DNA from: Desulfobacterales bacterium
Lineage (GTDB): Bacteria; Desulfobacterota; Desulfobacteria; Desulfobacterales; JALSRD01
NCBI GenBank assembly: GCA_026984935.1
Contig: JALSRD010000067.1
Span: 1 to 51,029 of the forward strand
Length of the DNA stretch: 51,029 bases
Reading direction: 5' to 3'
Shown: in pieces, positions 28,569-46,548 of the stretch
Position numbering within the stretch: position 1 is the first letter of the stretch
Layout: each line of letters starts with the position of its first letter
The notes under the pieces: model-generated
Database searches by the model: none
What the model was told of the DNA's origin: nothing
The model's input: only the letters and a program-made list of their open reading frames with translations
Program-made: the position numbers and the translations under genes

Positions 28569-30431
28569 ATGAAAGCACAAACAACAGATGACCGGATGAC
28601 TGAAGTTATGCATTTACGCCAGCAGCTGGCGGCACAGCAGACCCTTTTGCACAAGATCGAAGCCGCCCGCGAAGCGGCCAGAAAAAGCGATCTCAAGTGC
28701 CGGACGGTCTTTGAAAATGCAGGAACGGCCACCTTTGTCACACAAAGCGACATGACCATTTCCATGGTCAACCATCGGTTTGAAATCCTTACCGGCTATT
28801 CCAAGCTGGAAATCGAGGGCCGGCTGAAATGGACGCACGTTTTTGCGCGCGAAGATCTTGGCCGGCTGGCGCGCTGCCTTGCCGAGCGGCAGGGTGCCGA
28901 AGGGCCACCCAAAGAGCTGGCCTGCAGGATCGTTGGCCGCAACGGGCAAGTCAGGGATGTTATCTTCAGCCTGGATATCGTGCCCGGCACCCGCGAGATC
29001 GTCGGCTCGCTGATGGACATCTCGGCACTCAAAAAGGCCAAGCGCTATGTGTTGGAATCCAAGGCGCAGCTCAGCGCCATCGTCGAGGCCTTTGACGGAT
29101 TGATCTACGCCTGCACGGCCGATTACCAGATTCTCTACGTCAATGCAAAGATGAGCCGCCAAAGCGGCTACGATGCGGGCCAGAAGCTGTGTTATCGTGC
29201 CATTCATGGACGGCGGACACCGTGTTCCTTTTGTCCGATGGCAAAAGTGCAGCAAGGCCGGGTGGTGCGCTTTGACATCACCAACCCCGGTAACGGCCGC
29301 TGGTACGCCAGCACCAACACCCCCATTTACCATACCGACAAAAACATATCCCTGCTGGCGATGATTACCGATATTCACGAGCGCAAATTAGCCGAAATCG
29401 CACTAAAAGAAAGCGCACAGCGGTTGCACCGCGAAAACCGGGCCCTCAAATCGGGTCTGCGCGAGCGTTTCCGCTTTGGCGATATCATCGGCAAAAGTCC
29501 CGTCATGCAGGAGATCTACGAACAGATTTTACGCGCCGCCGGCACCGACACCAATGTCATTGTTTATGGAGAGCCGGGAACCGGCAAAGAGCTGGTCGCA
29601 CGTGCGATCCACGACACCGGCCCGCGGCGCGCGCGGCGCTTTGTCCCCGTCCACTGCGGCGCAATTCCCGAGCCGCTGTTCGAAAGTGAGTTTTTCGGCT
29701 ATAAAAAGGGCGCTTTTTCAGGTGCTTACCATGACAAGCCGGGATATCTGGATTATGCGCACCAAGGAACCCTGTTTCTGGATGAAATCGGGGAAATCAA
29801 TCCGCATATGCAGATGAAGCTGCTGCGCGCCATCGAAGGCGATGGCTATACGCCGGTTGGCAGCACCCAGGTCAAAACATCGGAATTCCGCATTGTCGCC
29901 GCCACCAACCGCGATTTGAAGGAGCTGGTTCGACAGGGGTTGGTGCGCCAGGATTTTTTCTATCGCATCCACATCATTCCCATCCATTTGCCGCCGTTGC
30001 GGGAGCGCAGGGAAGATATCCCGCTGCTGGCAGATTATTTTTTGGAAAAATACAGCCATGCTGGTTGTCCGCCGTCGCCGGTCGCCGGAAAATTTTACGA
30101 GATTCTGCACGGCTACAACTGGCCGGGAAACGTGCGCGAACTGCAAAACGCCATTATCCGCTTTTGTGCCACCGGGAATCTGGATTTTATCGTTTCGTCG
30201 GGCAATCGCATGGATGCATGCCATCTGGCCGCAAGTCCCACGCTGCCGATAGCCGACCACACGCTCAAAGAGCACATCCAGAAACTGGAAAAAAGCGTGA
30301 TTGCCCAGGCCTTGCAGCAGCACCACTGGCATCGCAGCAAGACGGCGGCAATGCTGGGAATCGACCGCAAAACCCTGGCGGCCAAGATAAAGCGGTATCG
30401 CCTGATGACCTCTTCACCGCAAAGTTGGTGA
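28569..30431 (+). CDS. Sigma-54-dependent response activator, PAS-PAS-AAA+-Fis
   Basis: A 620-residue transcription activator of the NtrC type without a receiver domain. A first PAS domain spans ~40-160. A second (~165-275) has an unusual cysteine set, CYRAIHGRRTPCSFCP near residue 207, which could bind an Fe-S cluster or act as a redox switch. The AAA+ domain has Walker A GEPGTGKE near residue 335, the sigma-54 contact motif GAFSGA near residue 382 and arginine-rich RERREDIP. A Fis-type helix-turn-helix ends the protein (HRSKTAAMLGIDRKTLAAKI). It is the last gene of the hyp operon and stands before a sigma-54 promoter, so it probably controls the following hydrogenase operon. Its signal is unknown. 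Confidence 0.9.
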   Translation: MKAQTTDDRMTEVMHLRQQLAAQQTLLHKIEAAREAARKSDLKCRTVFENAGTATFVTQSDMTISMVNHRFEILTGYSKLEIEGRLKWTHVFAREDLGRLARCLAERQGAEGPPKELACRIVGRNGQVRDVIFSLDIVPGTREIVGSLMDISALKKAKRYVLESKAQLSAIVEAFDGLIYACTADYQILYVNAKMSRQSGYDAGQKLCYRAIHGRRTPCSFCPMAKVQQGRVVRFDITNPGNGRWYASTNTPIYHTDKNISLLAMITDIHERKLAEIALKESAQRLHRENRALKSGLRERFRFGDIIGKSPVMQEIYEQILRAAGTDTNVIVYGEPGTGKELVARAIHDTGPRRARRFVPVHCGAIPEPLFESEFFGYKKGAFSGAYHDKPGYLDYAHQGTLFLDEIGEINPHMQMKLLRAIEGDGYTPVGSTQVKTSEFRIVAATNRDLKELVRQGLVRQDFFYRIHIIPIHLPPLRERREDIPLLADYFLEKYSHAGCPPSPVAGKFYEILHGYNWPGNVRELQNAIIRFCATGNLDFIVSSGNRMDACHLAASPTLPIADHTLKEHIQKLEKSVIAQALQQHHWHRSKTAAMLGIDRKTLAAKIKRYRLMTSSPQSW

Positions 30432-30809: not shown

Positions 30810-30825
30810 TGGTATAGTTCTTGCT
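30810..30825 (+). promoter_or_regulatory. Sigma-54 (-24/-12) promoter
   Basis: TGGTATAGTTCTTGCT matches the TGGCAC-N5-TTGCW consensus with correct GG-N10-GC spacing; the two C positions of the -24 box are T. It lies 61 bp before the endopeptidase gene and 380 bp after the sigma-54 activator gene, so it likely drives the selenoprotein hydrogenase operon. Confidence 0.65.
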
Positions 30826-30885
30826 GAGCTTTCCTGTCAAGGTCTTGCACAAAATGCACAATTTTAACAGATCGCATAAATCCCC

Positions 30886-31389
30886 ATGACGCTTTCGCTG
30901 ATTTTCAAAAAGGACCACCTGGTTTTCGGCTGCGGCAATCCCCTGCTGGGAGATGACGGGTTCGGGCCGGCCGTGATTGAATATATGCAGCATCACTGCC
31001 GGGTACCCGAAAACGCCGCGCTGATCGATGCCGGAACATCCATCCGGGATATTTTGTTTGACATTCTCCTATCTTCCAAAAAACCCAAACAGATCATTAT
31101 CGTCGATGCGGCGGATCAGCCGCACAGGCGAACGGGTGACATATTTGAAATTGACGTGGACCAGATCAGCCCCGCCAAGATCAACGATTTTTCGCTGCAC
31201 CAGTTTCCGACGACCAACATGCTCAAGGAGCTCCAGGAGGGGACTCGCATCGACGTGCGGGTCCTGGTCGTTCAAACGGGCGCCGTTCCGGATGAAGTGC
31301 GGCCGGGGCTTTCAAAACCGGTGGAAGCGGCGATTCCGGATATGAGCCAACGCATTCTAACGCTGATCAAGGAGGATCGTGATGATTGA
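30886..31389 (+). CDS. [NiFe] hydrogenase maturation endopeptidase (FrhD/HycI family)
   Basis: A 167-residue protease that recognises nickel in the large subunit and removes its C-terminal tail. [19 protein letters not shown] holds the first acidic nickel ligand, and IIVDAADQP and the histidine in LHQFPTTN supply the others. It is the first gene of the operon whose last gene, mvhA, encodes a 28-residue C-terminal extension after the metal-binding motif, its likely substrate. Its stop codon overlaps the strong ribosome site region and start of the HTH-hdrA reading frame. Confidence 0.88.
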
Positions 31390-34300
31390 GATTCGTGTCG
31401 GTAAATTAGCCCGGATGCTGGGAGTTCACCGCAATACGGTCAGCAACTGGATCAAAAGCGGAAAATTCAGCGCCCGGCCGACCGTCGGCAGGCGTTATCT
31501 GATCGAGCGGGCCGATTTCATCCATTTTTGCCGCAACCAGGGAATTTCAGAGGATATCACGGCACAGTTTGCAAACAGCGGCGGATTTGCCAAGCCCAGG
31601 GCGCACGCTGCATATCCCGTGGCCCGCGATACGGATAGGCACACAGAAAAAGGGGGGGGCATGACAGACGGACCCATCGGTTCGGTGATGGTGGTCGGCG
31701 GCGGCATCGCCGGCATGCAGGCGACCCTCGATCTGGCCGATTCCGGCTATAAGGTGTTTCTGGTTGAAAAAAGCGCCGGCATCGGCGGTGCCATGGCGCA
31801 GCTGGACAAGACTTTTCCCACCAACGACTGCGCCATGTGAATTATCTCACCCAAACTGGTCGAGGTCGGCCGGCATTTGAACGTCGAACTGTTAACGCTT
31901 TCCGAAGTGGAAGAATTTTCGGGAAATGAAGGCAATTTCAGTGTCCGAATCAAGAAAAATCCGCGCTACGTGGACATGGACAAGTGCATTGCCTGCGGCC
32001 TGTGCATGCAGAAGTGCCCCCGCAAGGTGGACGATGAGTTCAACATGGGTGTGGGCAAGCGCAAGGCCGCCTACATCAAGTACGGCCAGTCGGTGCCGCT
32101 GAAGTATGCCATCGATGCCGAGCACTGTATCTATCTGACGCGCGGCAAATGCCGGGCCTGCGAAAAGTTCTGCCCTACCGGGGCCATCAACTTCGAAGAC
32201 CGTGAAAAACATCTGTCCATCGATGTCGGGGCCGTCATCCTGGCCCCCGGGTTTCACCCTTTCGATCCGTCCGGTTTCGACTTCTACGGATACGGCCGCA
32301 TCACCGATGTGGTCACCAGCCTGGAGTACGAACGCATGCTATCGGCCAGCGGGCCCTGCATGGGCCATCTGATCCGCCCCTCGGACCATACGGAACCCAA
32401 GAAAATCGCTTGGCTGCAGTGCGTGGGTTCGCGCAGCACCAACCGCTGCAAGAACGGGTACTGTTCCAGCGTCTGCTGTATGTACGCCATCAAACAGGCC
32501 GTGGTGACCGCCGAACATTTAAATGAGGGCATTCCCCAGCAGACCATCTTTTTCATGGACATCCGCAGCCATGGAAAGGATTTCGAGCGCTACTACGAAA
32601 CAGCAGCGGCCAAGGGCATCCGGTTCGTACGCGCACGCCCGCACACCATCCTGGCGGGGAAAAACAACATGGGCGTGACCATGCAGTACACGGCCGAGGA
32701 CGGGCGCATGCACTGCGAAGACTTTGACCTGGCCGTGCTCTCCATCGGGCTGGAGGCGCCCGAAGATGGACCCGTGCTGGCCGCAAAATTCGGTATCGAG
32801 CTGAACTCCTACGGCTTTGCGCAAACCACCGATTTCGAACCGGTGCGAAGCACGCGCCCGGGTATTTTCGTCACCGGCGCCTTCCAGGCGCCCAAAGATA
32901 TCCCCCAGGCGGTCACCGAAGCCTCCACGGCGGCCTGCGAAGCCGCCCGGGCGCTGATGCCGGCGCGTGGCGCGCTGACGCATGAGAAAACCTACCCGGC
33001 CGAGCAGGATGTCACGTCCCAAGAGCCGGTCATCGGTGTGTTCGTGTGTTCCTGCGGCATCAACATTGCCAGCGTCGTCGACGTCGATGCCGTGGCGCAA
33101 TACGCCAGGACCCTGCCGCATGTGGGTTTCGTGGAAAACAACCTGTTTACCTGCTCGGCGGACACCCAGAGCCTGATCGCCGAGAAAATCAGGGAGCATC
33201 ACCTCAACCGCGTGGTCATCGCCGCCTGTACGCCCAGAACCCATGAGCCGCTGTTCCAGGACACCTTGCGGGAGGCCGGGCTGAACGGCTTTCTGGTCGA
33301 GATGGCCAACATCCGCAATCACAACGCCTGGGTGCACCAGGCGCTCCCGGAAGCCGCGACACAAAAAGCCAAGGACCAGGTGCGCATGGCGGTTGCACGG
33401 GTGGCCCAAAACGATCCGTTGAGGCAGCTCAAGGTGGACGTGGTGCAGAAGGCCCTGGTGATCGGCGGAGGGGTTGCGGGCATGAACGCAGCGCTGGCGC
33501 TGGCCGACCAGGGATTCGACTGCGTGCTCCTTGAGAAGTCGGATCGCCTCGGTGGAAACGCCCGGCGCCTGGCGGCCACCGACCGGGGCCAGAAGGTTGC
33601 GCCCATGCTCACGCGGCTCATCGAACGCACCGAGAGCCATGCGCGCATCAAGGTGCTGAAAAAAGCGGTTTTAAGAAGCGCCGTCGGTTCGGTGGGCAAT
33701 TTCGTCAGCAAAATCGAGGTGGACGGTGACACCCGGGCGGTTACCTACGGCACGGCCGTGGTGGCCACCGGGGCTGCGGAATACCAGCCCCGAGAATATC
33801 TCTACGGCCAGGACGAGCGCATCATGACGCACCTGCAGTTCGATGACCAGCTGGCGCAGAACGAAGCCGCCGTCGGAAGAGCCCGCAGCAGCGTTTTTAT
33901 CCAGTGCGTGGGGTCGCGCGAACCGCAGCGGCCTTACTGCAGCCGCCTGTGCTGTACGCATTCGGTCAAAAACGCCCTCCGCCTCAAAACCTTAAATCCC
34001 GAAATGAATGTTTACATCCTGTACCGCGATATACGCACCTACGGCGAACGTGAAGATCTGTACAAGAGCGCCCGCGATCTGGGGGTGATCTTCATTCGCT
34101 ACGGTCTCGACAGCCAGCCCGTGGTTTCCAGGAAAGGCGATGACCTGTTTGTCGAGGTGTTTGACCCGGTTGCCCAGCTGCCGCTGAAGCTGTATGCCGA
34201 CTATCTGGTGCTGGCCGCCGCCGTGGTGCCCCACGATCACCAGGCGCTGGTTGAGCTGTTCAAATGCGGGGTCAATGCGGACGGGTTTTTAAACGAAGCG

Positions 34301-34708
34301 CATCCCAAGCTGCGGCCCGTGGACATGTCGGTGGACGGGCTGTTCGTGGCCGGCCTGTGCCACTATCCCAAACCCATGGATGAATCCATTGCCCAGGCAC
34401 GGGCCGCCGCTTCGCGGGCAGGCTTGATTCTGGCCAAAGAAGAAATGCAGCTCGATGCCATCAAATCTTATGTCACGGAAAATTGCGACGGCTGCGCCCT
34501 GTGCGTGGACGTCTGTCCCTACCGGGCCATCAAGCTTGAGCAAGAGAAGATCGACGGCCGCAGCCATATCGTGACCGATCCGGCATTGTGCAAAGGCTGC
34601 GGGCTGTGCGCGGCGACCTGCCCCAAGGAGGGGGTCTATGTACATGGATTCACCCTGCCCCAGTTAAAGGCCCAGGTCGAGGCCCTGCTTGCGGAAGCAA
34701 CCGCCTGA
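31382..34708 (+). CDS. hdrA: HdrA-like FAD/Fe-S electron-bifurcating subunit, selenoprotein, with in-frame N-terminal helix-turn-helix
   Basis: Read through the UGA at 31838-31840 this is 1108 residues. Residues 1-60 form an excisionase-type helix-turn-helix ([20 protein letters not shown]). HdrA proper begins near Met94 (ATG 31661, after a G-rich ribosome site), so a 1015-residue product without the HTH is also possible. Next come an FAD motif ([10 protein letters not shown]) and the active-site region NDCAM-Sec-IISPK, where Sec153 replaces the family cysteine. Ferredoxin motifs ([12 protein letters not shown]), a second FAD motif ([10 protein letters not shown]) and C-terminal [12 protein letters not shown] and [12 protein letters not shown] follow. 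HdrA bifurcates electrons between ferredoxin and a disulfide-type acceptor. AAGGAGG precedes the ATG at 31382. Confidence 0.9.
31856..31873 (+). promoter_or_regulatory. SECIS-like hairpin in hdrA
   Basis: CTGGTC-gaggtc-GGCCGG forms a 6-bp stem (two G-U pairs) with a six-base loop, starting 15 nt after the UGA. The AGGUC in the loop resembles the E. coli fdhF SECIS loop. It would be bound by SelB. Confidence 0.6.
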
Positions 34709-34762
34709 CCGGCGAAGCACGCTTTTGAACCCGTCACGTCGATGCGGCAAAGGAGAAAAGTG

Positions 34763-35194
34763 ATGCCTGAAGATTTCGAACCCGTCATTATCGGTTTTCT
34801 GTGCAACTGGTGCGCTTATGCCGGCGGTGACCTGGCCGGCGTGTCGCGCCTGCAGTATCCGCCCAACATGCGGGCCGTGCGGGTGATGTGCTCCGGCATG
34901 GTGCACCCGGATATCGTGGTGCACGCACTGCAAAAGGGTGCCGACGGCGCCCTGGTGATGGGGTGACATCCGGGCGAATGCCATTACCTGGAAGGTAATA
35001 CCAAAGCTTTGGCCCGCGGTGAAGCGATCAAAATCGTGCTGGACGGTCTGGGAATCGATGCACGGCGTTTTGCCATCGAATGGGTGTCTTCTGCCGAGGC
35101 GCCGCGCTTTGCCGAAGTCGTTACCCGCTTTACCGAGAAAATCAAAATGCTGGGCCCGAATCTGATATGCAGCCAGCGCGCCCTGAGCCGATGA
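34763..35194 (+). CDS. mvhD: MvhD-like hydrogenase/Hdr electron-transfer subunit, selenoprotein
   Basis: 143 residues when the UGA at 34964-34966 is read as Sec68. The family carries a [2Fe-2S] cluster and passes electrons from the hydrogenase to HdrA. FLCNWCAYAGGDLAG near the N-terminus and CSGMVHPD are typical. The Sec lies in G-Sec-HPGECHYLEGN, where MvhD proteins usually have GCHxGDCHYxxGN, so it replaces a cluster cysteine, as in methanogen VhuD. AAAGGAG precedes the ATG at 34763. It follows hdrA by 54 bp. Confidence 0.9.
34983..34999 (+). promoter_or_regulatory. SECIS-like hairpin in mvhD
   Basis: ATTACC-TGGAA-GGTAAT is a perfect 6-bp stem with a five-base loop, starting 16 nt after the UGA, which is the placement expected for a bacterial SECIS element. 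Confidence 0.65.
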
Positions 35195-35229
35195 CTGCAG
35201 CGATGTACGGGTCAAACGGAGAATCACGC

Positions 35230-36549
35230 ATGAAACAGACAGCCGTTTTGCTGGGAAGGGAACACCGCAGCACATTCAGAGATCACGTGATGGCGCTATT
35301 GCCCGCGGGCGGCAACCTGAACGCCTGCCTGACCTGTGGCGCGTGCGCCTCCGGGTGTCCCGCCACCGGTCTCAAGGACATGGACCCGCGCAAATTTTTG
35401 CGCATGGCGGCGCTGGGCTTGGATGACCAGGTGACCACGACCCCGTGGGTCTGGATGTGTAGCATGTGCCAGCGCTGCATCTATGTGTGCCCCATGAAAA
35501 TCGATATCCCCCAGCTGGTTTATTACGCCCGTCAGTCCTGGCCGCGCGAAAAGCGCCCCAAGGGAATTTTGGGCTCCTGCGACATGGCCCTGCGCAGTGA
35601 CACGTGCAGCGCCATGGGCACCAGCGAGGAGGATTTTCAGTTCGTCGTGGAAGATGTGCTGGACGAATACCGCGAAACCCAGCCGGAATTTGCCCACATG
35701 CAGGCGCCCATCAACAAGAGCGGCGCGTATTTTTTCTTAAACCAGAATTCACGCGAACCGGTGACCGAACCGGACGAGATGGTCCCGCTGTGGAAAATCC
35801 TGCACCTGGCCGGCGCCGACTGGACCTATGCCACCAAGGGGTGGGCGGCGGAAAATTACTGCATGTTCATGGCCGACGATGAAAACTGGAAACACATTGT
35901 CGAAATCAAGAAAAAAGCCGTGGAGGACCTGGGCTGCAAGGTCTGGCTCAACACCGAATGAGGGCACGAACTTTTCGCGGTCCGGGCCGGACTGAAAAAG
36001 TTTAACATCCCCTACAATTTTGAAATCCGAAGCATCATCCAATACTACGCCCAGTGGATTCGGGAGGGAAAGCTCAAGGTCAGTGCCGACTGGAACCATG
36101 ACCTGAAAATCAAGTTTACCATACAGGACCCCTGTCAGTTGGTGCGCAAGAGCTTCGGCGATCCCGTGGCCGAAGACCTGCGTTTTGTTACCCAAGCCGT
36201 GGTTGGAGAAGAGAATTTCATCGACATGCATCCCAACCGCTCCAACAACTACTGCTGTGGCGGCGGCGGCGGCTTCCTGCAGTCCGGCTACACCGATGCC
36301 CGGCGGGCCTACGGGAAGATGAAAGCCGAACAGATTCTGGCCACGGGTGCGGATTATTGCATCACGCCCTGCCACAACTGTCATGCACAGATTCATGATC
36401 TCAGTGACATCCGCAAGCATGCCTGGCAGACGGTGCACCTGTGGACGCTGATCTGCCTGTCGCTGGGGGTGTTGGGGCCCAACGAACGCACCTATCTGGG
36501 AGATGATCTGCAGAATGTGGCCCCCTTTCACCCGGAATCGGCCCTGTGA
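35230..36549 (+). CDS. HdrC-HdrB-like (HdrD-type) Fe-S oxidoreductase, selenoprotein
   Basis: 439 residues with the UGA at 35959-35961 read as Sec244. Residues ~30-105 hold two ferredoxin-type clusters (CLTCGACASGCP, CSMCQRCIYVCP), as in HdrC. The remainder has two CCG-like halves, as in HdrB. In the first, Sec244 stands in NTE-Sec-GHELFAVRAG where a cysteine is expected. The second has DPCQL, CCGGGGG and CHNCH. In Hdr the CCG domains hold the noncubane clusters that reduce a disulfide. The true acceptor in this bacterium is unknown. GGAG precedes the ATG at 35230. Confidence 0.87.
35978..35994 (+). promoter_or_regulatory. SECIS-like hairpin in the hdrCB-like gene
   Basis: CGGTCC-GGGCC-GGACTG forms a 6-bp stem with one G-U pair and a five-base loop, starting 16 nt after the UGA. 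Confidence 0.6.
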
Positions 36550-36612
36550 GGACAGATCCGGATTTAAAGCTGCCCCGGCACTTTCGCCTTGTATCCGCAG
36601 ACTGGAGGGACC

Positions 36613-37725
36613 ATGAAAACCTTTTTCGACTTGATTCAAAGAGTCCAGAAACCCGGACTCTGCCATCGCTGCGGCGGATGCGTGACCTTCTGCACGGCGG
36701 TTAATTACGGTGCGCTGGAGATGGATGAAGATGGCAAACCCCGCTATCGGGACATCGACAAGTGCATCGAATGCGGTTTGTGCTACATGATCTGTCCTGA
36801 AATTGAAGAACTGGAGGAGGAAACCCGCCAGCGCATCGGATGGAGCGAGCCCATCGGCCGGGTCATGGAAACCACGGTGGCCCGTGCAGCCGATCCGGCC
36901 ATCCGCCAGCGCGGCACCGACGGCGGTGTCGTCACCGCCCTGCTGGCGCACCTGTTCGATACCGGCCGCATTGACGGTGCCATCGTCAGCAAGCAGGTGG
37001 GGCCCTTTCAGCGTGAATCGGTGCTGGCCACTAGCCGCGAAGAAATCCTGCAGGCCGCCGGATTTTTCTTTGACACTTCGCACGGCATGAAAAGTCTGGG
37101 CGATGAGTACATGATTCACACTTCCATCGAACAGTTCAGCCCCCTGATCAAAAAGGGCCTGCGCCGCGTGGCACTGGTGGGCACGCCCTGCCAGATCCAG
37201 GCCTTTCGCCGAATGGAAACCATCGGCATTGTGCCTGCAGACGCCATTCGTATCTGTCTGGGGCTCTTTTGTTCCGGCAACTTCCTGTTTGGCGAAGCCC
37301 AGCGCAAAAAAATCGCCAAAATCGGCGGTTTTGCCTGGGAAGATGTGCGCAAGATCAACGTCAAAGACCAGTTCATGGCGCATCTGAAAAGCGGAGAAGT
37401 GCGTACCATCGACATCGATGCACTCGCCGACATGAAGCGCCATGCCTGCCGCTACTGTCCGGATTACAGTTCCCAGTATGCGGACATTTCGTTCGGCGGC
37501 ATCGGTGCCGAGGAAGGCTGGACCACCGTGATCACGCGTACACCCCAGGGCCGGGCGGCGTTTGCCGATGCCCGTCAAGATGCCCTGGAACAATACAACC
37601 CCAAGGACGATCCGGATTATGCCAGTGCAGCCTTGAATCAGGTGCTGCAGGCCGCGGCCAGGAAAAGAAAGGCTGCCCGGGCCTGTCGCCGCGAGCTGGG
37701 CCGCCCAGTGGTCGTCAAGCAGTGA
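36613..37725 (+). CDS. FrhB-like coenzyme F420 hydrogenase/dehydrogenase beta subunit family protein
   Basis: A 370-residue flavo-iron-sulfur protein. Two N-terminal ferredoxin-type motifs (CHRCGGCVTFC and CIECGLCYMICP, residues ~17-65) precede the FrhB domains with RGTDGGVVTALLAHL, VGTPCQIQAFRR and CRYCPDYSSQYADIS. The family uses FAD to exchange electrons with F420 in archaea, but bacterial members may use ferredoxin or another carrier. It lies inside the hdr-mvh operon, between the HdrB-like gene and mvhG. The ATG at 36613 follows TGGAGGGACC. Confidence 0.87.
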   Translation: MKTFFDLIQRVQKPGLCHRCGGCVTFCTAVNYGALEMDEDGKPRYRDIDKCIECGLCYMICPEIEELEEETRQRIGWSEPIGRVMETTVARAADPAIRQRGTDGGVVTALLAHLFDTGRIDGAIVSKQVGPFQRESVLATSREEILQAAGFFFDTSHGMKSLGDEYMIHTSIEQFSPLIKKGLRRVALVGTPCQIQAFRRMETIGIVPADAIRICLGLFCSGNFLFGEAQRKKIAKIGGFAWEDVRKINVKDQFMAHLKSGEVRTIDIDALADMKRHACRYCPDYSSQYADISFGGIGAEEGWTTVITRTPQGRAAFADARQDALEQYNPKDDPDYASAALNQVLQAAARKRKAARACRRELGRPVVVKQ

Positions 37726-37783
37726 TACCCGTCTGGACAGGCGTATGCCCACAGACGAAAATTGCGTCAAGTAAGGAGATGTC

Positions 37784-38722
37784 ATGGCGGTTAAAGTTGC
37801 GAGCGAATGGTTGAACTCCTGTTCCGGCTGCGAAATTTCAATTCTTGACATGGGCGAACGCCTGCTGGAGGTGTTGAAAGTTGCCGATTTCGTCCACATT
37901 CCGGCGCTGATGGACCACAAGTATTTCGGTCAGCAAGGCGACGGCACCCATCTCGAGATCCCGCAAGCGGATGTCGGGCTGATCAGCGGCGGCATCCGCA
38001 ACGAAGAACACCTGGAGGTGGCCCGCGAAATGCGCAAAAAGTGTCAATTCATCGTGGCGCTGGGAACCTGCGCCACCCACGGCGGGATCCCCGCCTTGAC
38101 CAACTCGTATTCCAACCGGCAGACCCTGGAGCGCTGTTTTGCAACCGAAACCACCGATGCCAACGATTTTAGTCCCGCCGAAAGCATCCCTGTGTTCCTG
38201 GATGCCTGTTATGCCCTGGATGAAAAGATCGAGGTGGATCTTTACATGCCGGGCTGCCCGCCGCACCCGGACCATATTTTTGCGGCCCTGGTGGCGTTGG
38301 TAGAAGGAGAACTTCCGGAACTTCCGGGCAAGAGCAACTGCGATACCTGCCCCACGGCCCGCGAGGGCAAGGGGAACCTGAAGCAGCTGCGCCGTTTTCT
38401 GCAAGCGCCCCACTACCAGTCGGCGGCCGAGCCGCTGGACAAGATGCGCTGCTTTCTGGAACAGGGAATCCTGTGCATGGGACCGGTCACCCGGGCCGGC
38501 TGCGGCGGAGATGAACGCCCGCCACGCTGTATTTCGGCCCGGGTGCCATGCCGGGGCTGCTATGGACCGGTCAAACCGGACGGCAACCAGCAGCTGGACA
38601 TGCTGAACGCCCTGGCCTCCAACGGCATCGATATCAAATCCCTGCCGGAATTCACTTCACTGCTGCGTTTTTCCGGCGCGCATCAACTGCTGAAACCGAT
38701 ACCGAAGCAGAAGGAGGTATAA
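37784..38722 (+). CDS. mvhG: [NiFe] hydrogenase small subunit, MvhG type (group 3)
   Basis: 312 residues with no Tat signal, so cytoplasmic. NSCSGCEISI with Cys13 and Cys16 binds the proximal cluster; LGTCATHGGIP and MPGCPPHPD supply further ligands. C-terminal cysteines (CDTC, CMGPVTRAGCGG, CISARVPCRGCYGP) bind the other clusters. It pairs with MvhA, which starts 3 bp after its stop. AAGGAGATGTC precedes the ATG. Confidence 0.93.
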   Translation: MAVKVASEWLNSCSGCEISILDMGERLLEVLKVADFVHIPALMDHKYFGQQGDGTHLEIPQADVGLISGGIRNEEHLEVAREMRKKCQFIVALGTCATHGGIPALTNSYSNRQTLERCFATETTDANDFSPAESIPVFLDACYALDEKIEVDLYMPGCPPHPDHIFAALVALVEGELPELPGKSNCDTCPTAREGKGNLKQLRRFLQAPHYQSAAEPLDKMRCFLEQGILCMGPVTRAGCGGDERPPRCISARVPCRGCYGPVKPDGNQQLDMLNALASNGIDIKSLPEFTSLLRFSGAHQLLKPIPKQKEV

Positions 38723-38725
38723 CTG

Positions 38726-40180
38726 ATGGCACAGGTTATCAAAATACAGCCGATTACGCGTATCGAAGGGCATGCTTCCATCGGCATCCAGCTGGATGAC
38801 AGCGGCAACGTCGAAAATGCCAGGATGAACATCATGTCCCTGCGCGGATTCGAAAAGTTCATCGAGGGCAAGCCCGCCGAGGAGGTTCCGCGCATCGTCA
38901 GCCGGATCTGCGGCATCTGCCCCTGGATGCACCACATGGCCTCCAACAAGGCGGTGGACCGTTGTTTCGGGGTGACACCTCCGCCGGCCGGCCGCAAACT
39001 GCGCGAGCTGATGCAAACCATTGCGCATGCCGAAGACAAGCTGCTGCACTTCTTTTTCCTGGCGGCGGCCGACTTCGTCATCGGCCCGGACGCCGATTAT
39101 GCCGTGCGTAATGTGATCGGCATTGCCAAGGCCAATCCCGAACTGGCCCAAAAGGTCGTGCAGATGCGCTACAAGGCCAAGATGGTCCTTGAAAAATTTG
39201 CCGGCAAGGCCATTCACCCCATCGCCGGCGTAACCGGCGGGTTCTCCAAGCCCATGCTGGAGGAAGAGCGCCGGGAGATCCTGGCCACCATGCATGAGCT
39301 GCTCGATTTTGCGCTGTTTACTATGGATTTTGCCAAGGAGAAGGTGTTTCCCCCTTACCTGGACACGATTCAGACCCTGGGGGTCATCAACACGGGTTTT
39401 ATCGGTACGGTGGACGATGCGGGGGCGCTGAACCTCTACGACGGCCGGATTCGCGTCATGAAGCCCGACGGCAGCTATACGGATTTCGATGTGCAGCATT
39501 ACGCCGACTACATCGGTGAGCATGTGGAATCGTACTCTTACAGCAAAATGCCCTATGCGCGTTTCTGGGACGAGGGCTTTTCGCTGGACCTGGAAGACCC
39601 CAAGGGAATTTACCGCGCAAACACCCTGGCGCGCCTCAACGTGGCCGATAAAATGGCAACCCCCAGGGCCCAGGCTGAACTGGAAGAGTTCCGTGAGCAC
39701 TTCGGCCGTCCGGCCCAGGCGACCCTGCTCTACCACTGGGCGCGGTTGATCGAGGAAGTTTATGCCTGTGAGCACGCCATCGAACTTCTGCAGGATCCCG
39801 AAATCACCGATACCAACATCCGCACACCGGCCGAACCACAGGCCGGCACGGGGGTCGGCTCGGTGGAAGCGCCGCGCGGGACCCTGATCCACGATTACTC
39901 CACCGACGACAACGGACTGATCACACGCGCCAACATGATCGTGGGAACCACCCACAATATCGGTCCCATGAATATGAGTGTCAATCAGGCGGCCAGGATG
40001 CTGATCCATGCCGGCCAGGTGGACGAAGGCATTTTAAACCGCATCGAAATGGCGGTGCGCGCCTACGACCCATGAATTTCGTGCGCCACCCATCGCCTGG
40101 ACGGCGACCACGGCATTTCCGTCACCATCACGGACGCAAGCGGCAAAGTGCTTCAAACCTGGCCGCGCGCATCGGTTTGA
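38726..40180 (+). CDS. mvhA: [NiFe] hydrogenase large subunit, MvhA type, selenoprotein ([NiFeSe])
   Basis: 484 residues with the UGA at 40073-40075 read as Sec450. The N-terminal nickel ligands are Cys62 and Cys65 in RICGIC. The C-terminal motif reads DP-Sec-ISCATH, where other group 3 enzymes have DPCxxCxxH, so Sec450 and Cys453 bind nickel. After His456 a 28-residue tail remains, the part normally cut off by the endopeptidase. GGAGG precedes the ATG. Stopping at the UGA would leave an enzyme without its second nickel site, which argues strongly for readthrough. It is the last gene of the operon. Confidence 0.94.
40093..40107 (+). promoter_or_regulatory. SECIS-like hairpin in mvhA
   Basis: TCGCC-TGGAC-GGCGA forms a 5-bp stem with a five-base loop, starting 17 nt after the UGA. 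The loop is nearly the same as in the mvhD hairpin (TGGAA). Confidence 0.6.
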
Positions 40181-40568: not shown

Positions 40569-41735
40569 ATGTGCTGCCCGGTAAGGGCCCAACAGCCAAG
40601 GGGGGGGGACATGGACGTTCAAAAGAATTGCATGCCTGACAGACAAAAACTGACGGGGGTGTCACGGCGGGATTTCATCAAATTCTGCGGCGTCATGGCG
40701 GTGGGTATGGGCCTGCCCGTGGGCATGGGGCCCAGAATCGCCGCCGCCGCCACGGCCCCCCAGCGGCCGCCGGTGATCTGGATACACGGCCAGGAGTGCA
40801 CCGGGTGCTCGGAGTCCCTGCTGCGCACCTCCCATCCCACCCTGGAGCGCCTGATCCTGGATCTGATCTCGCTGGATTACCACGAAACCCTGGAGGCCGG
40901 CGCCGGCCGGCAGGCCGAGGCGGCCTTTGACCAGGCCGTCAAAAAAAGCGCCGGCAGATTCATCCTGGTGGTCGAAGGTTCGGCGCCTGTAAAAGACGGC
41001 GGTATTTATTGTAAAATCGCCGGCAAACCCTTTGTGGACATCGTTACGGAAACGGCCGCTAAGGCGGCGGCCATAATCGCCATCGGCTCATGTGCCTCCT
41101 GGGGCGGGGTGCAGTCCTCGGCCCCCAATCCCACCGGCGCCACCGGCATCCCCGAAGTGCTCAAGGGCAAAACGGTGGTTACCATTCCGGGCTGCCCGCC
41201 CAATCCCTACAACTTTCTTTCGACGGTGCTCTACTTTCTGACCTTCAAGAAACTGCCGGACTTGGACGACCTGGGCCGGCCCAAGTTCGCCTACGGCCGC
41301 CTGATCCATGAAAACTGCATGCGCCGGCCGCATTTCGACGCCGGCCGCTTTGCCGAACAGTTCGGCGACGAGGGGCACCGTAAGGGCTACTGCCTTTACA
41401 AGCTGGGATGCAAAGGCCCCATGACCTATGCCAACTGTCCGGTCATTTTGTTCAACGACGTGGGTTCCGGCGCCTGGCCGGTGGGCACCGGGCACCCCTG
41501 TTTCGGCTGCACCGAAGAGGGAGTGGGATTCACGATTCCCCAATTCACCGAAGCCGATGTGGAAATCGTTACGCCGGCGGCTGCGCACGCGCCCATCACT
41601 GTCGAAAAAGGCCGGGGGATGTCCAAGGGTTCGGCCGCCCTGCTGGGGGGTCTGGCCGGAGCGGCCATCGGCGCCGGTGTCATGGTCACCAAGCAGCTGG
41701 GCAAGGCCGAGAGCGCCGACGAAAAAGAGGAGTAA
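40569..41735 (+). CDS. Periplasmic [NiFe] hydrogenase small subunit (HybO/HynB type, Tat-exported)
   Basis: 388 residues. A Tat signal (VSRRDFIKFCG, then MAVGMGLPVGMG) lies near residues 32-55 and exports the folded dimer. ECTGCSESLL binds the proximal cluster; GSCASWGG, PGCPPNPYNF, CLYKLGCKGP and CFGCTEEG bind the rest. A C-terminal hydrophobic helix (ALLGGLAGAAIGAGVMV) anchors it in the membrane, as in HybO. The ATG at 40569 has AGGAGG nine bases upstream; the ATG at 40611 is an alternative with a G-rich ribosome site. It is the first gene of a five-gene operon. Confidence 0.93.
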   Translation: MCCPVRAQQPRGGDMDVQKNCMPDRQKLTGVSRRDFIKFCGVMAVGMGLPVGMGPRIAAAATAPQRPPVIWIHGQECTGCSESLLRTSHPTLERLILDLISLDYHETLEAGAGRQAEAAFDQAVKKSAGRFILVVEGSAPVKDGGIYCKIAGKPFVDIVTETAAKAAAIIAIGSCASWGGVQSSAPNPTGATGIPEVLKGKTVVTIPGCPPNPYNFLSTVLYFLTFKKLPDLDDLGRPKFAYGRLIHENCMRRPHFDAGRFAEQFGDEGHRKGYCLYKLGCKGPMTYANCPVILFNDVGSGAWPVGTGHPCFGCTEEGVGFTIPQFTEADVEIVTPAAAHAPITVEKGRGMSKGSAALLGGLAGAAIGAGVMVTKQLGKAESADEKEE

Positions 41736-41738
41736 ATC

Positions 41739-42689
41739 ATGCAGATCAAGAGACGTGATTTTCTCAAGACGGTCGCCGGTGGCGCCGCTCTGGCGGCCGC
41801 ACCGTCCATCACCATGGCCTCTGATGCGGTCAGACGGCTGCCGGGGGCGGTGGGGATTCTGTACGACTCCACCCTGTGCATCGGCTGCCAGGTGTGCACG
41901 GTGGCCTGCAAGGAAGCCAACAATATGCCGCCCGAATTCTCCGGGAACCAGCGGCGCTGGGACAATCCCGTCGACCTGTCCGCGCGTACGCTGAGCATCA
42001 TCAAGGAATACGAAAGCGGCAACCGGCACCACAAGGATCATGCGCAGGACGGATACGCCTTTGTCAAACGCCAGTGCATGCACTGCGTGGACCCGCCCTG
42101 CACCACGGCCTGCCCGGCGTCGGCGCTGACCAAGGATCCGCAAAATGGCATGGTCACCTACAACAAGGACGCCTGCATCGGCTGCCGCTATTGCGAGGTG
42201 GCCTGCCCCTTCGAAATTCCCAAGTTTCAGTGGGACCGGCCCTTTCCCCAGATCGTCAAGTGCCAGCTGTGCGCCCACCTGCTGGCCAAAGGCCGCATCC
42301 CGGCCTGCTGCCATCAGTGCCCCACGGGCGCTTCACTCTTCGGTCCGGTGGCGGGACTGCTCGCAGAGGCCCGGCGGCGCCAGCAGATGACAGCCGGGAA
42401 AACCTACGACTTCCCGCTGTCTTCGCTGGCTTCGGGCAAAACCCGCACGCACCGCGCCGGGAAATACATTCCGCACATCTACGGTGAACATGAAAACGGC
42501 GGCACCCAGGTACTCTATCTGGCCGGGGTGAGTTTCGACAAACTGGGGCTGCCGGATCTCCCCGAGCGCCCCTACACGGCCCTGGCTCGAAGCATTCAGC
42601 ACACGCTCTACAGAGGGCTGGTGGCGCCCATCGTGGTTTTCGGCGGCCTGATGGTACTGGTCGCTCGGCGCACAAAAGACAAGGAATAG
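41739..42689 (+). CDS. hybA: HybA-like periplasmic ferredoxin subunit of the hydrogenase
   Basis: 316 residues. The N-terminal twin-arginine signal is KRRDFLKTVAGGAALAAA. Four [4Fe-4S] clusters are indicated by CIGCQVCTVACK, CMHCVDPPCTTACP, CIGCRYCEVACP and CQLC...CCHQCP. A C-terminal membrane helix (LVAPIVVFGGLMVLV) anchors it. It carries electrons from the small subunit to HybB. It starts 3 bp after the small subunit gene. Confidence 0.93.
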   Translation: MQIKRRDFLKTVAGGAALAAAPSITMASDAVRRLPGAVGILYDSTLCIGCQVCTVACKEANNMPPEFSGNQRRWDNPVDLSARTLSIIKEYESGNRHHKDHAQDGYAFVKRQCMHCVDPPCTTACPASALTKDPQNGMVTYNKDACIGCRYCEVACPFEIPKFQWDRPFPQIVKCQLCAHLLAKGRIPACCHQCPTGASLFGPVAGLLAEARRRQQMTAGKTYDFPLSSLASGKTRTHRAGKYIPHIYGEHENGGTQVLYLAGVSFDKLGLPDLPERPYTALARSIQHTLYRGLVAPIVVFGGLMVLVARRTKDKE

Positions 42690-42742
42690 GATCTGCCGGT
42701 GGTGTACGCAGATTCATCCGGCCTGCATGCAAGGAGGGACAT

Positions 42743-43870
42743 ATGAGAGCAGCAAGACCGCTGGGCGGCAGGGTCGTTTCGCGAACCTTTCTGGCGGCGC
42801 TGGTGATCGTGCTGGTGGCGCTGTACTTTCTGGCCAAACGGTTCATGTTCGGCCTGGGGGCCGTCACCAATTTAAATGACGGCTATCCCTGGGGCCTCTG
42901 GATCGCCTACGATGTGGTCACGGGCACGGCCATCGGCTGCGGCGGCTATTCCATGGCGCTGTTGGTCTATGTTTTCAACAAGGGCCGCTACCACCCGCTG
43001 GTGCGGCCGGCGGTCATGACCAGCATGTTCGGCTACACCCTGGCAGGCGTGGCGGTGTTTTTCGATATCGGCCGCTACTGGCATATCTACAACCTGTTTC
43101 TGCCGTGGTATGCCAATCCCGATTCGGTGCTGCTGGAAGTGGCGCTGTGCATTGCGCTGTACAGCCTGGTGCTGTGGATCGAATTTGCCCCCACTTTTTT
43201 GGCCCATTGGCATGCATCGCGGTGGCGGACCCGACTCGACAGGGCGATGTTCGTCTTCATCGCCCTGGGCATCCTTTTGCCCACCATGCACCAGTCTTCG
43301 CTGGGCACCATGATGATCGCCGCCGGCCAGAAGCTGTCGCCCCTGTGGCAAACGGCCTGGCTGCCGCTGCTGTTTCTGATGACGGCCGTCATCATGGGAT
43401 ACGCGGCCGTGGTTTTCGAATCCACCCTGTTGGCCAACCGTTACGGGCTGCCCGGCGAAAACCGCATCCTTGGCAAATTGTCCGGCGGCGTCGTATGGCT
43501 GGTGGCCGGCTATCTGGTGGTCCGGTTTGCCGATGTGATCCTGCGGGGGCAACTGGGTCTGGCGTTCAAAGGCGACTTGGCGGCCAATATGTTCTGGATC
43601 GAAAATGCGCTTTTCCTACTCCCCCTGGTGATGCTGGCGGGAAAATCCGGCCGCGGCAGGCCGCGCGTGCTGTTTCTGGCGGCGGCGTCACTGCTGCTGG
43701 CCGGCGGTGTGTACCGCTTTGACTGCTACCTGATCGGTTTTAATCCGGGCAACGGCTGGCATTACTTCCCGGCGGTGCCGGAAATCGTGATTACCCTGGG
43801 ACTTATTTCCGTAGAGCTGATGGCCTACCTGTGGTTTGTCAAGCGGCTGCCGGTGTATCGGGAGGCCTAA
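42743..43870 (+). CDS. hybB: HybB-like (NrfD/PsrC family) quinone-reactive membrane subunit
   Basis: A 375-residue integral membrane protein with about ten hydrophobic helices. It belongs to the NrfD/PsrC family, whose members exchange electrons with the quinone pool. The N-terminal GLGAVTNLNDGYPWGLWIAYD is the family signature. With HybA it links periplasmic H2 oxidation to menaquinone. AAGGAGGGACAT precedes the ATG. No cytochrome c subunit is encoded nearby. Confidence 0.92.
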   Translation: MRAARPLGGRVVSRTFLAALVIVLVALYFLAKRFMFGLGAVTNLNDGYPWGLWIAYDVVTGTAIGCGGYSMALLVYVFNKGRYHPLVRPAVMTSMFGYTLAGVAVFFDIGRYWHIYNLFLPWYANPDSVLLEVALCIALYSLVLWIEFAPTFLAHWHASRWRTRLDRAMFVFIALGILLPTMHQSSLGTMMIAAGQKLSPLWQTAWLPLLFLMTAVIMGYAAVVFESTLLANRYGLPGENRILGKLSGGVVWLVAGYLVVRFADVILRGQLGLAFKGDLAANMFWIENALFLLPLVMLAGKSGRGRPRVLFLAAASLLLAGGVYRFDCYLIGFNPGNGWHYFPAVPEIVITLGLISVELMAYLWFVKRLPVYREA

Positions 43871-43908
43871 AGGGCATTTGAGCAGGTATTCTATTAAGGA
43901 GACGCAAG

Positions 43909-45624
43909 ATGGCAAAGAGAATCGTCGTTGATCCCATCACGAGGATAGAAGGGCATCTCAGAATTGACTGCGAAATCGACAGAGGCAAGGTTGTCAACGC
44001 CTGGTCTTCCGCCCAGATGTGGCGCGGCATCGAGCAGATCCTGGCCGGGCGCGACCCACGCGAAGCCTGGATTTTCACCCAGCGCATCTGCGGCGTCTGC
44101 ACCACCGTGCATGCCATGGCTTCGGTGCGCGCCGTCGAAAATGCACTGAAGCTGGAAGTGCCTTTGAATGCCCAGTACATCCGTAACCTGATCATCGGTG
44201 CCCACGGCATCCACGATCACATCGTGCACTTTTACCATCTCTCGGCCCTGGACTGGGTGGATGTGGTCTCCGCCCTCAAAGCCGACCCGCAAAAAACCGC
44301 CAAGCTGGCCCAAAAGCTGTCGCCCTGGCCACACAACGGCTACCAGGAGCTGAAAACCACGCAGGAAAAACTCAAGACCCTGGTCTCCTCCGGCCAGCTG
44401 GGTATTTTCGCCAGCGGCTACTGGGGCCACCCGGCCATGAAACTGCCGCCTGAGGTTAACCTGCTGGCCACCCATCACTACCTGCAGGCCCTGGAATACC
44501 AGCGAAAAATCAACAAGGCCGTGGCGATTTTGGGCAGCAAGACGCCGCATATTCAGAACCTGGCGGTGGGCGGCGTGGCCAACCCCATCAATCCGCAGAG
44601 CCAGTCCACCCTGACCGTGGAGCGCCTGGTTTACGTCAAGAAGTTCATCGATGAAGTCGGTGATTTCATCAAAAACGTCTACATGGTGGACGTGGCCGCC
44701 GTGGGAGCCATGTATGCCGACTGGACCACTTACGGGGCCGGTGTTACCGATTACCTGAGCGTACCGGACATGCCGCTGGATACGGCCGGCACGCGTTTCG
44801 AACACCCCGGAGGCTATATGCCCGGCGGGGATCCGGCCGAATTCGAACCCATTCGTTCTTTCGACGATGATTTGTTCGGCAAGAACGTCAAGGAGAGCAT
44901 CAAGCACGCCTGGTACAAGGGGGACTGGGACCGCCATCCCTGGGATGAAGAAACCGTTCCCGAGTATACCGATTTCCAGGACAACGGGAAATATTCCTGG
45001 ATCAAGTCGCCGAACTTTAAAGGCAAACCTGCCCAGGTGGGGCCGCTGGCAAACGTGCTGGCCATGTATGCCGCGGGCCATGAGCCTACGCGCAGACACG
45101 CCGGCCGAATGCTTAAAACCATCAACAGCGTGCTGGCGCTGACGGGTTCCACGACGCGCGTTTCGCTGGCTGGGCTGCAGTCCACCATCGGCCGGCATGC
45201 CGCCCGGGCGGTGCGTTGCGCGGTATTGCATGATACGATCGTCAAACACTGGCAGCTGCTGGTGGACAACATCGGCAGAGGCGACTACAAGACGTTCAAT
45301 GCGCCGGTTTTCCCCAAGGGCGAACAGCAGGGATTCGGATTCCACGAAGCGCCGCGCGGGACATTGTCGCACTGGGTGGTGATCCGGGACGGCAAGATCA
45401 AGAACTACCAGTGCGTGGTGCCTTCCACCTGGAACGCCGGTCCGCGCAGCAGCCAGGATCAGCGGGGGCCCTATGAAGCCTCCCTGATCGGCAACCCGGT
45501 GGCGGATCCGCAAAAACCGCTGGAGGTCGTCCGCACCGTGCACTCGTTTGATCCCTGTATCGCCTGTGCGGTTCACATGGTGGACATGCAGCACAACGAG
45601 ATCGTCAGGGTGCGGGTGTTTTGA
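43909..45624 (+). CDS. hybC: Periplasmic [NiFe] hydrogenase large subunit (HybC/HynA type)
   Basis: 571 residues, normal for group 1 enzymes. QRICGVCT near residue 62 and the C-terminal DPCIACAVH (Cys550 and Cys553) supply the four nickel cysteines; here all are cysteine, unlike the Sec-containing MvhA. A 15-residue tail after His556 is removed during maturation. It has no signal of its own and is exported with the small subunit. AAGGAGACGCAAG precedes the ATG; the stop overlaps the endopeptidase gene start. Confidence 0.95.
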   Translation: MAKRIVVDPITRIEGHLRIDCEIDRGKVVNAWSSAQMWRGIEQILAGRDPREAWIFTQRICGVCTTVHAMASVRAVENALKLEVPLNAQYIRNLIIGAHGIHDHIVHFYHLSALDWVDVVSALKADPQKTAKLAQKLSPWPHNGYQELKTTQEKLKTLVSSGQLGIFASGYWGHPAMKLPPEVNLLATHHYLQALEYQRKINKAVAILGSKTPHIQNLAVGGVANPINPQSQSTLTVERLVYVKKFIDEVGDFIKNVYMVDVAAVGAMYADWTTYGAGVTDYLSVPDMPLDTAGTRFEHPGGYMPGGDPAEFEPIRSFDDDLFGKNVKESIKHAWYKGDWDRHPWDEETVPEYTDFQDNGKYSWIKSPNFKGKPAQVGPLANVLAMYAAGHEPTRRHAGRMLKTINSVLALTGSTTRVSLAGLQSTIGRHAARAVRCAVLHDTIVKHWQLLVDNIGRGDYKTFNAPVFPKGEQQGFGFHEAPRGTLSHWVVIRDGKIKNYQCVVPSTWNAGPRSSQDQRGPYEASLIGNPVADPQKPLEVVRTVHSFDPCIACAVHMVDMQHNEIVRVRVF

Positions 45625-46307: not shown

Positions 46308-46384
<77 letters not shown>

Positions 46385-46471
46385 AAATCATACCGAGCGG
46401 TGCCTGCTTCTATAAAATTCCTGCCTGAAAAGTGATCTTCCGGTCAAAGGGTAACGCCCGGTACATAAAAA

Positions 46472-46548
46472 TGGGGTGAGTGAAGGGACTTGAACCCTCG
46501 GCCACCTGGGCCACAACCAGGTGCTCTACCAACTGAGCTACACCCACC
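46472..46548 (-). tRNA. tRNA-His (anticodon GTG)
   Basis: A 77-nt cloverleaf on the minus strand. The acceptor GGTGGGTG pairs with CACTCACC over eight positions, including the extra G-1 typical of tRNA-His. The anticodon loop TTGTGGC gives GTG, and CCA is encoded. Confidence 0.95.

Follow-up and report, generated by a model that had tools for sequence, protein, structure and literature searches.

The DNA studied here (the window) is a complete contig, C67, of 51,029 bases from a Desulfobacterales genome of 3.89 Mb (112 contigs, 99.45% complete). It carries an operon for a [NiFeSe] hydrogenase together with subunits of a heterodisulfide reductase (Hdr), and the reading frame of the HdrA subunit opens with a winged helix-turn-helix (HTH) domain. 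PutA is a flavoenzyme that carries a fused DNA-binding domain at its N-terminus and acts as repressor of its own gene; judging from the sequence, we consider it probable that the bifurcating hydrogenase-Hdr complex likewise regulates its own operon, by HTH-HdrA binding to direct repeats. The joined frame of HTH and enzyme, together with this candidate operator, is the part of the locus that an earlier reading of the same DNA (the original prediction) missed, and is what is novel in it; the selenium chemistry confirms and extends a known operon. No HTH joined to HdrA or GlpC was found in the open-access literature searched (one library). The elements concerned are:

30810 to 30825, plus strand: match to a sigma-54 type -24/-12 promoter, TGGTATAGTTCTTGCT, score 12/12
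30845 to 30861, plus strand: candidate operator, a 9-bp direct repeat, TTGCACAAAATGCACAA; the pattern was fitted to this site, and it is associated with the HTH across loci
31379 to 34708, plus strand: HTH-HdrA in one frame, with two FAD-type domains and a selenocysteine (Sec) UGA at codon 154
31382 to 31576, plus strand: winged HTH domain (HTH_17, BldC/MerR-like; PF12728), followed by a linker of about 30 residues

We compared 82 loci, namely 80 stretches around MvhA (hydrogenase large subunit) homologues, one named locus (L051) and the window. The 80 stretches are a selection from homology matches, mostly of the Sec type, and several end at contig edges. All 82 loci were scanned for the HTH with a single regular expression, which diverged copies may escape.

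In the window, residues 8-53 of the HdrA frame matched PF12728 (HTH_17) with 41.1 bits (cut-off 27). The AlphaFold model of HTH-HdrA was mediocre (mean pLDDT 69, 18 sequences) and was used for the HTH fold and linker disorder only; it predicted helices and a wing, followed by a disordered linker (residues 67-96 below pLDDT 50). Among the 82 loci the HTH was found in 42 places, 31 of which open into HdrA and nine into the HdrCB-like protein, a GlpC-type Fe-S oxidoreductase. Two are joined to neither: L191 has a stop after the HTH, and in L230 the downstream frame has seemingly decayed. Where cysteine (Cys) stands in place of Sec, the frames ran without a stop over 1092-1094 codons (HTH-HdrA of L209 and L229) or 475-477 codons (HTH-HdrCB of L240, L248 and L249). 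HTH residues H16, R17, N18, T19, N22 and W23 were invariant in 23 aligned HTH-HdrA rows. For ten sequence pairs, some sharing loci, dN/dS was 0.12-0.35 in the HTH, 0-1.7 in the linker (computable for 8 of 10 pairs) and 0.01-0.15 in HdrA; by this measure the HTH is under purifying selection and the linker is not. The reading frames demonstrate that HTH and HdrA are encoded as one. Gene calling that halts at UGA would report a short HTH protein only, which may explain why the fusion went unnoticed.

The candidate operator lies 24 bp before the ATG of the maturation protease gene and starts 19 bp past the sigma-54 match, a place just downstream of the promoter that would fit repression. Upstream regions of HTH loci contained TTGCACA/TGTGCAA in 30 of 38 cases (shuffle maximum 13) and GCACA at a 9-bp period in 18 of 38 (shuffle maximum 3). 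A palindromic operator was rejected, the enriched dyads being direct repeats. Scoring for the tandem TTGCACAA at a 9-bp period (at least 13/16, within 300 bp of the protease) covered the 64 loci with a protease match; HTH loci L232, L234 and L237, which have no such match, were left out. The site occurred in 29 of 39 HTH loci (37 joined, plus L191 and L230) versus 4 of 25 without the HTH, and shuffled sequences reached 13/16 in 0.3-0.4%. When the 25 were divided by whether their genome has the HTH elsewhere (thresholds 1e-3 and 1e-6), the site was present in 4 of 11 with and 0 of 14 without it. These counts demonstrate an association of HTH and putative operator across the loci.

The pattern fitted to 30845-30861, TTGCACAANNTGCACAA, had no other match in this genome with up to one mismatch and six with two, versus one place with two mismatches for its reversed control. 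Across 38 genomes the strict pattern matched 20 times, in 14 genomes, versus 2 matches for the reversed control. Eighteen of the 20 sites lie upstream of a cassette protease, HTH or HdrA gene (two of them overlap), and the one in L283 is on the cassette contig, not clearly upstream. A strict site in a genome without an HTH match (L289; G763:C2:20300-20316) has no cassette gene within 1.5 kb and is probably there by chance.

The most telling evidence for the operator comes from five genomes of another order (f139) and is independent of motif discovery. In all five the HTH runs into the HdrCB-like protein at a second locus, in one open frame, and no HTH was found at their hydrogenase operon. The strict pattern occurs exactly twice per genome, once at the HTH-HdrCB locus and once at the hydrogenase operon. 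In L294, L295 and L299, all from this group, the HTH-HdrCB locus also includes a maturation protease match of its own (42-44%).

Excerpts of the study on Streptomyces BldC (PMC5859096) describe a MerR-like winged HTH without a dimerisation domain, whose protomers each bind a 9-bp direct repeat; the window has a MerR-like winged HTH and 9-bp direct repeats as candidate sites, and binding of the one to the other is predicted. According to the same excerpts BldC is a free protein of 68 residues, whereas in 40 of the 42 HTH places found here the domain shares its frame with a redox enzyme. HdrR of Methanosarcina, a regulator of hdrBCA, is a separate HTH protein (PMC11218639, excerpt).

In the mechanism that we propose, a BldC-like winged HTH on a flexible linker begins the HdrA frame. 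Its probable binding site is the pair of 9-bp direct repeats shortly after the promoter, through which an enzyme subunit would repress or otherwise tune its own operon. The window protein resembles PutA in that a flavoenzyme and a DNA-binding domain share one frame. It differs in kind: PutA joins a ribbon-helix-helix domain to a proline enzyme, and here a winged HTH is joined to a hydrogenase-linked flavoprotein. Translation from an internal start probably yields a shorter HdrA in addition. We infer DNA binding, repression and any redox signal, as well as bifurcation and the identity of the acceptor. If the reading holds, regulation would reside within the energy-converting enzyme itself, a parallel to PutA in a flavin-based bifurcating hydrogenase, and the locus would offer a direct test, at a named DNA site, of a transcriptional read-out of flavin or cluster redox state. 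More speculatively, and with considerable doubt on our part, the bifurcating hydrogenase could be its own transcription factor, the BldC-type domain on its flavin (or HdrCB) subunit polymerising head-to-tail on the 9-bp promoter repeats with binding gated by redox or assembly state and, in the Sec form, by UGA decoding. The cell would then need no separate sensor to match hydrogenase synthesis to its electron load and selenium supply.

Several observations weigh against autoregulation by a joined protein. Many relatives have the hydrogenase without the HTH. A 13/16 site is missing from 10 of 39 HTH loci and from 7 of the 11 loci whose genome carries the HTH at another place. Of the 38 genomes scanned with the strict pattern, 24 gave no match, and some of these, for instance G003 and G082, do carry the HTH. 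The count of 29 of 39 is partly circular because the consensus was derived from 38 of these 39 loci, which are also related to one another; the division of the other 25 loci and the genome scans are less affected by this circularity. By sequence the HTH resembles BldC weakly (E 0.6 to 6ama and 6amk). HdrA might instead start internally. The joined chain would then be rare or absent, and the HTH would work as a small regulator that at most forms part of a minor fusion product. In 26 of 31 HTH-HdrA loci, window included, an ATG is kept 12-13 residues before the FAD glycine motif, which is why we expect a shorter HdrA as well; a linker ATG stands behind a Shine-Dalgarno-like 4-mer in 25 of 31, and in L191 stops separate the HTH, as its own frame, from HdrA. 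HTH-free HdrA may even be the main product. Against a general internal start, no stop separates the HTH from its HdrA neighbour in 31 of 32 cases, and translation begun at the HTH must therefore continue into HdrA; the linkers of L204, L209 and L229 have no ATG, GTG or TTG until at most four residues before the glycine motif; and 7 of 9 HTH-HdrCB linkers have no ATG, although GTG or TTG is present in six of these seven. We regard this explanation as unlikely. We give similarly little weight to the idea that the repeats serve another regulator, such as the PAS/sigma-54 activator, with the HTH as a structural or protein-protein module. An activator gene does lie just upstream here and in several other genomes, and an N-terminal HTH could dock a partner. 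The presence of the site, however, tracks the HTH (29/39, 4/11 and 0/14, as above), the second strict site of the five f139 genomes lies at a separate HTH-HdrCB locus, and the 9-bp period is that of BldC sites (PMC5859096, excerpt).

The HTH could also be part of a selenium switch: under selenium shortage the UGA at 31838 would act as a stop, and a peptide of about 150 residues containing the HTH would repress, whereas with selenium the HTH would be tied to HdrA. Consistent with this, 29 of 31 HTH-HdrA frames end at the Sec UGA, 129-146 codons from the HTH motif, 6 of 9 HTH-HdrCB frames end at theirs after 290-293 codons, and the truncated frame retains the entire HTH. On the other hand, the HTH is kept in the Cys-type fusions of L209, L229, L240, L248 and L249; having no UGA there, the HTH works without such a switch, which weakens the switch as its general purpose. 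The fragment would also include part of a flavin domain and may be unstable. A selenium switch therefore seems to us improbable, and we prefer autoregulation through the joined HTH-HdrA. That the internal UGAs are true stops or sequencing errors is extremely improbable. All four selenoprotein genes do also terminate in UGA. The internal UGA, however, stands at the same codon in 59 HdrA, 61 MvhD, 16 HdrCB-like and 78 MvhA rows, window included, the sequence beyond it is conserved in those rows, the hairpins described below are paired in Sec rows and incompletely so in Cys rows, and tRNA-Sec and SelB are present.

The further features of the operon, with an activator gene before and selB behind it, are:

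28569 to 30431, plus strand: PAS-PAS sigma-54 activator, candidate activator of the operon; PF00158 202.4 bits
30886 to 31389, plus strand: hydrogenase maturation protease (HycI/FrhD type); TIGR00072 122.6 bits (cut-off 47.45), PF01750
31838 to 31840, plus strand: Sec UGA of HdrA (CAMU)
34763 to 35194, plus strand: mvhD, Sec UGA at codon 68; PF02662 170.7 bits
34964 to 34966, plus strand: Sec UGA of MvhD (GUHPGECHY)
35230 to 36549, plus strand: hdrCB-like gene for a GlpC-type Fe-S oxidoreductase, Sec UGA at codon 244
35959 to 35961, plus strand: Sec UGA of the HdrCB-like protein (EUGH)
36613 to 37725, plus strand: FrhB/FdhB-type Fe-S flavoprotein, no Sec; PF04432 128.4 bits, PF04422 72.1 bits
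37784 to 38722, plus strand: mvhG, hydrogenase small subunit; PF01058 111.5 bits, VhuG model 215.9 bits (under its cut-off of 450)
38726 to 40180, plus strand: mvhA, [NiFeSe] hydrogenase large subunit, Sec UGA at codon 450; VhuA model 460 bits (under its cut-off of 800)
40073 to 40075, plus strand: Sec UGA of MvhA (DPUISC)
47091 to 49001, plus strand: selB; TIGR00475 387.6 bits (cut-off 242.25)

The Sec-encoding hdrA, mvhD, glpC-like and mvhA genes and mvhG are all on one strand. The original prediction named the four selenoprotein genes correctly and omitted the protease (30886), the HTH in the HdrA frame, the FrhB-like gene (36613) and mvhG (37784). As it had stated, each of the four has one in-frame UGA; with TGA read as Sec, each frame contains one internal UGA and ends at a terminal UGA stop. 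The sites are residue 154 of HdrA (TNDCAM-U-IISPK), 68 of MvhD (VMG-U-HPGECHY), 244 of the HdrCB/GlpC-like protein (NTE-U-GHEL) and 450 of MvhA (YDP-U-ISCATH). Alignments and a model match agree with its further claim that each UGA stands at a family cysteine: the HdrA and MvhD positions align with cysteines of structurally solved archaeal HdrA and MvhD, the HdrCB-like position is Cys or Sec in 31 of 31 aligned sequences, and the MvhA site falls inside the stretch matched by the VhuU selenoprotein model. We looked for homologues in relatives that end at the UGA positions and saw none, the matches continuing past the TGA. Nearly all full-length MvhA relatives (58-86% identity) have one TGA, and such MvhA rows occur in many genomes of the phylum. 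A tRNA-Sec was found on contig C41 (76.1 bits, above cut-off), and selB, placed at 7 kb by the original prediction, starts about 6.9 kb beyond the operon end.

A hairpin follows each UGA, as had been noted; the distance of 15-17 nt given for it needed correction, since the stems begin 15, 16, 18 and 17 nt downstream in HdrA, MvhD, HdrCB-like and MvhA, respectively. Pairing in these selenocysteine insertion sequence (SECIS) candidates was measured as planned pairs in Sec rows versus Cys rows, with slid controls. All planned pairs were present in 46 of 55 (HdrA), 29 of 59 (MvhD), 16 of 16 (HdrCB-like) and 71 of 75 (MvhA) distinct Sec sequences, versus 0 of 5, 0 of 13, 0 of 4 and 0 of 2 distinct Cys sequences. 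In Sec rows 93-100% of the cells were paired, compared with 40-83% in Cys rows; slid controls of the Sec rows had means of 32-39% and maxima of 65-78%. MvhD, at 93%, lay above its slid controls (mean 32%, maximum 78%). The MvhA hairpin had 33 two-sided changes, and third codon positions of the MvhD stem were almost invariant in 61 Sec rows and variable in 13 Cys rows. The HdrA count understates the support because the hairpin has a second register in 38 of the 59 Sec rows; in the window (31838-31880) and its relatives two alternative registers occur, in 21 and 38 loci.

Folding energy gave a mean z of -1.1 to -1.5 for the HdrA, HdrCB-like and MvhA Sec rows. Some points count against the hairpins: that of MvhD was inconspicuous by energy (mean z +0.37), the four Cys HdrCB-like rows (z -0.95) were nearly as low as the Sec rows, and the early loop G of all Sec rows was also present in 18 of 24 Cys rows. 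An energy-only test was set aside, as it did not single out MvhD, in favour of the pairing counts against Cys rows and slid controls. We conclude from the alignments that all four genes have Sec codons with SECIS hairpins. The MvhA hairpin (40076-40180) lies within the coding stretch for the tail around and after CATH. The tail after CATH is presumably cleaved off during MvhA maturation, and for this reason the RNA and protein constraints would be largely separated. The stop UGA of hdrA is in frame with mvhD (34706-34760), and its readthrough would join HdrA to MvhD in one chain; the RNA behind it folds no more strongly (-9.5) than that behind other stops.

The use of Sec varied across the 82 loci. 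The MvhA residue was Sec in 77, Cys in four and unscorable in one. In the 77 loci with Sec-MvhA, HdrA had Sec in 59 and Cys in 6 (12 unscorable), MvhD had Sec in 61 and Cys in 10 (6 unscorable), and the HdrCB-like protein had Sec in 24, Cys in 7 and no match in 46 of the fetched stretches, some of which end at contig edges. All four were Sec in 21 loci, the window and the distant HdrCB-like type included. The original prediction's picture of a path that is selenium-tuned as a whole does not hold as a rule, with Cys in 6 of 65 scorable HdrA and 10 of 71 scorable MvhD loci where MvhA has Sec. The HdrCB-like Sec subunit is optional. An FrhB-like flavoprotein was present in 47 of the 77 loci. The UGH-type HdrCB/GlpC protein had Sec in the main match of all 80 named loci (the best 80 of 446); among these, only L051 has an MvhA match above 60 bits in the DNA examined. 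The family has 13 matches in this genome, one of which (L039; G000:C60:17374-18684, minus strand) is a second Sec HdrCB/GlpC-like gene, 83% identical, in a stretch with no other match to the hydrogenase cassette above 60 bits.

Homologues of HdrA, MvhD, MvhG and MvhA of the Mvh-Hdr complex are all present, which supports the original assignment as a bacterial Hdr-Mvh hydrogenase cluster whose HdrA, MvhD, HdrB-like and MvhA subunits contain Sec. Window HdrA scored 932.8 bits with the HdrA2 model NF040770 (cut-off 1100), and in Foldseek its N-terminal half was 41-43% identical to the HdrA subunits of methanogen complexes in which Hdr is combined with hydrogenase or Elp. Its residues 104-473, 542-714 and 965-1107 match archaeal HdrA 155-517, 4-176 and 519-656; this order implies a permutation of the archaeal parts about a second flavin domain. 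HdrB has two complete CCG motifs and two noncubane clusters. The HdrCB-like chain combines an HdrC-like part with a fold that matches HdrB over model range 166-431 (Z about 20), and it is also similar to EtfD (Z 24.2); HmcF, TmcB and DsrK models gave 165, 157 and 104 bits, each under its cut-off. Two complete CCG motifs, as expected of HdrB, were not found in its alignment. There is one PF02754 stretch, only the second CCG set is invariant (C302, C342, C343, C381 and C384), and the first half keeps residue 244 alone, Sec in the window. Thiol/disulfide chemistry might take place at Sec244, opposite one noncubane cluster.

The predicted product is a cytoplasmic complex of [NiFeSe] hydrogenase and Hdr, of the four-selenoprotein kind already known from Deltaproteobacteria. 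H2 would be split at MvhA, where Sec is expected at the active-site metal, and electrons would pass through MvhG and Sec-bearing MvhD to HdrA, whose flavins probably divide them between ferredoxin and a second acceptor; this bifurcation is predicted from homology. The second acceptor would be reached via the Sec-bearing HdrCB-like subunit, the FrhB-like flavoprotein or both, and it may be situated on the FrhB side. CofD (TIGR01819; other F420 genes were not searched) was above cut-off in 0 of 28 genomes, this one included, with weak partial matches in 10, and in 3 of 14 control genomes. F420 is therefore disfavoured as acceptor, and FrhB is probably not F420-dependent.

Compared with the archaeal Mvh-Hdr/Vhu-Hdr complex (PDB 5odc), with which it has the HdrA, MvhD, MvhG and MvhA homologues in common, the window differs in the permuted order of HdrA, an HdrCB-like chain with one complete CCG motif in place of HdrB, an extra FrhB-like subunit and the HTH joined to HdrA. 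Sec is known from archaeal HdrA, VhuD/MvhD and VhuU/MvhA (excerpts of PMC1794560 and PMC13188914). Novelty of the four-selenoprotein operon is not supported, as the same operon appears in these two sources (2006 and 2026). Zhang et al. 2006 (PMC1794560) described a glpC-hdrA-frhD-frhG-frhA four-selenoprotein operon of Deltaproteobacteria, and the 2026 review (PMC13188914) lists the UGH motif of the Fe-S oxidoreductase. In the excerpt of the 2006 study, the operon has the four Sec families and the small subunit in common with the window, comes from the same bacterial group and likewise has hdrA in two joined halves. Its gene order differs from that of the window (protease-HTH/hdrA-mvhD-glpC-frhB-mvhG-mvhA), and the excerpted description does not mention FrhB, the HTH domain, the protease or the operator. 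The sulfate reducer Desulfobacterium autotrophicum HRM2 has an mvhA2DG-hdrA1 cluster with Sec in HdrA1 and MvhA2DG, and its listed selenoproteins also include a Sec HdrD4 homologous to HdrCB; the excerpt of its description (PMC2702500), by which alone it was compared, contains no HTH or operator.

In the MvhA tree, which contained no archaeal sequences, the window, L178 and the five f139 sequences grouped together (7 rows, support 100/99), and the label 'order' needed six changes. In a genome of the same genus (G001), searches for MvhA (threshold 1e-120) and for the HTH (1e-3) found nothing. Owing to these order changes and the lack of both matches in G001, the cassette seems to have been moved or lost often. 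Among the matches listed, the nearest named relatives of the window HdrCB-like protein were Desulfobacteraceae and metagenome-assembled genomes of Desulfobacterales.

The sigma-54 match at 30810-30825 is the sole perfect one in the window (0.44 expected by chance), and 0 of 100 shuffles of the upstream region reached its 12/12 score. The promoter was rejected as a conserved feature, as 3 of 64 upstream regions (window included) scored at least 11/12. The description of the operon as sigma-54-driven is hence plausible for this genome and not general; in L185, L200 and L203, TTGACA-type promoters were visible by eye instead. hypF, hypD and hypE precede the operon, with the PAS-type sigma-54 activator, and homologues of the activator lie 5' of the protease in several relatives. 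Directly 3' of the operon (40569-46163) is a Hyb-type [NiFe] hydrogenase set of small subunit, HybA, HybB, a large subunit without internal UGA, and a protease. Genes for tRNA-Arg(tcg) and tRNA-His(gtg) (46308-46547, minus strand) lie between the hydrogenase genes and selB, and a fluoride riboswitch was detected at 17162-17233 (42.9 bits).

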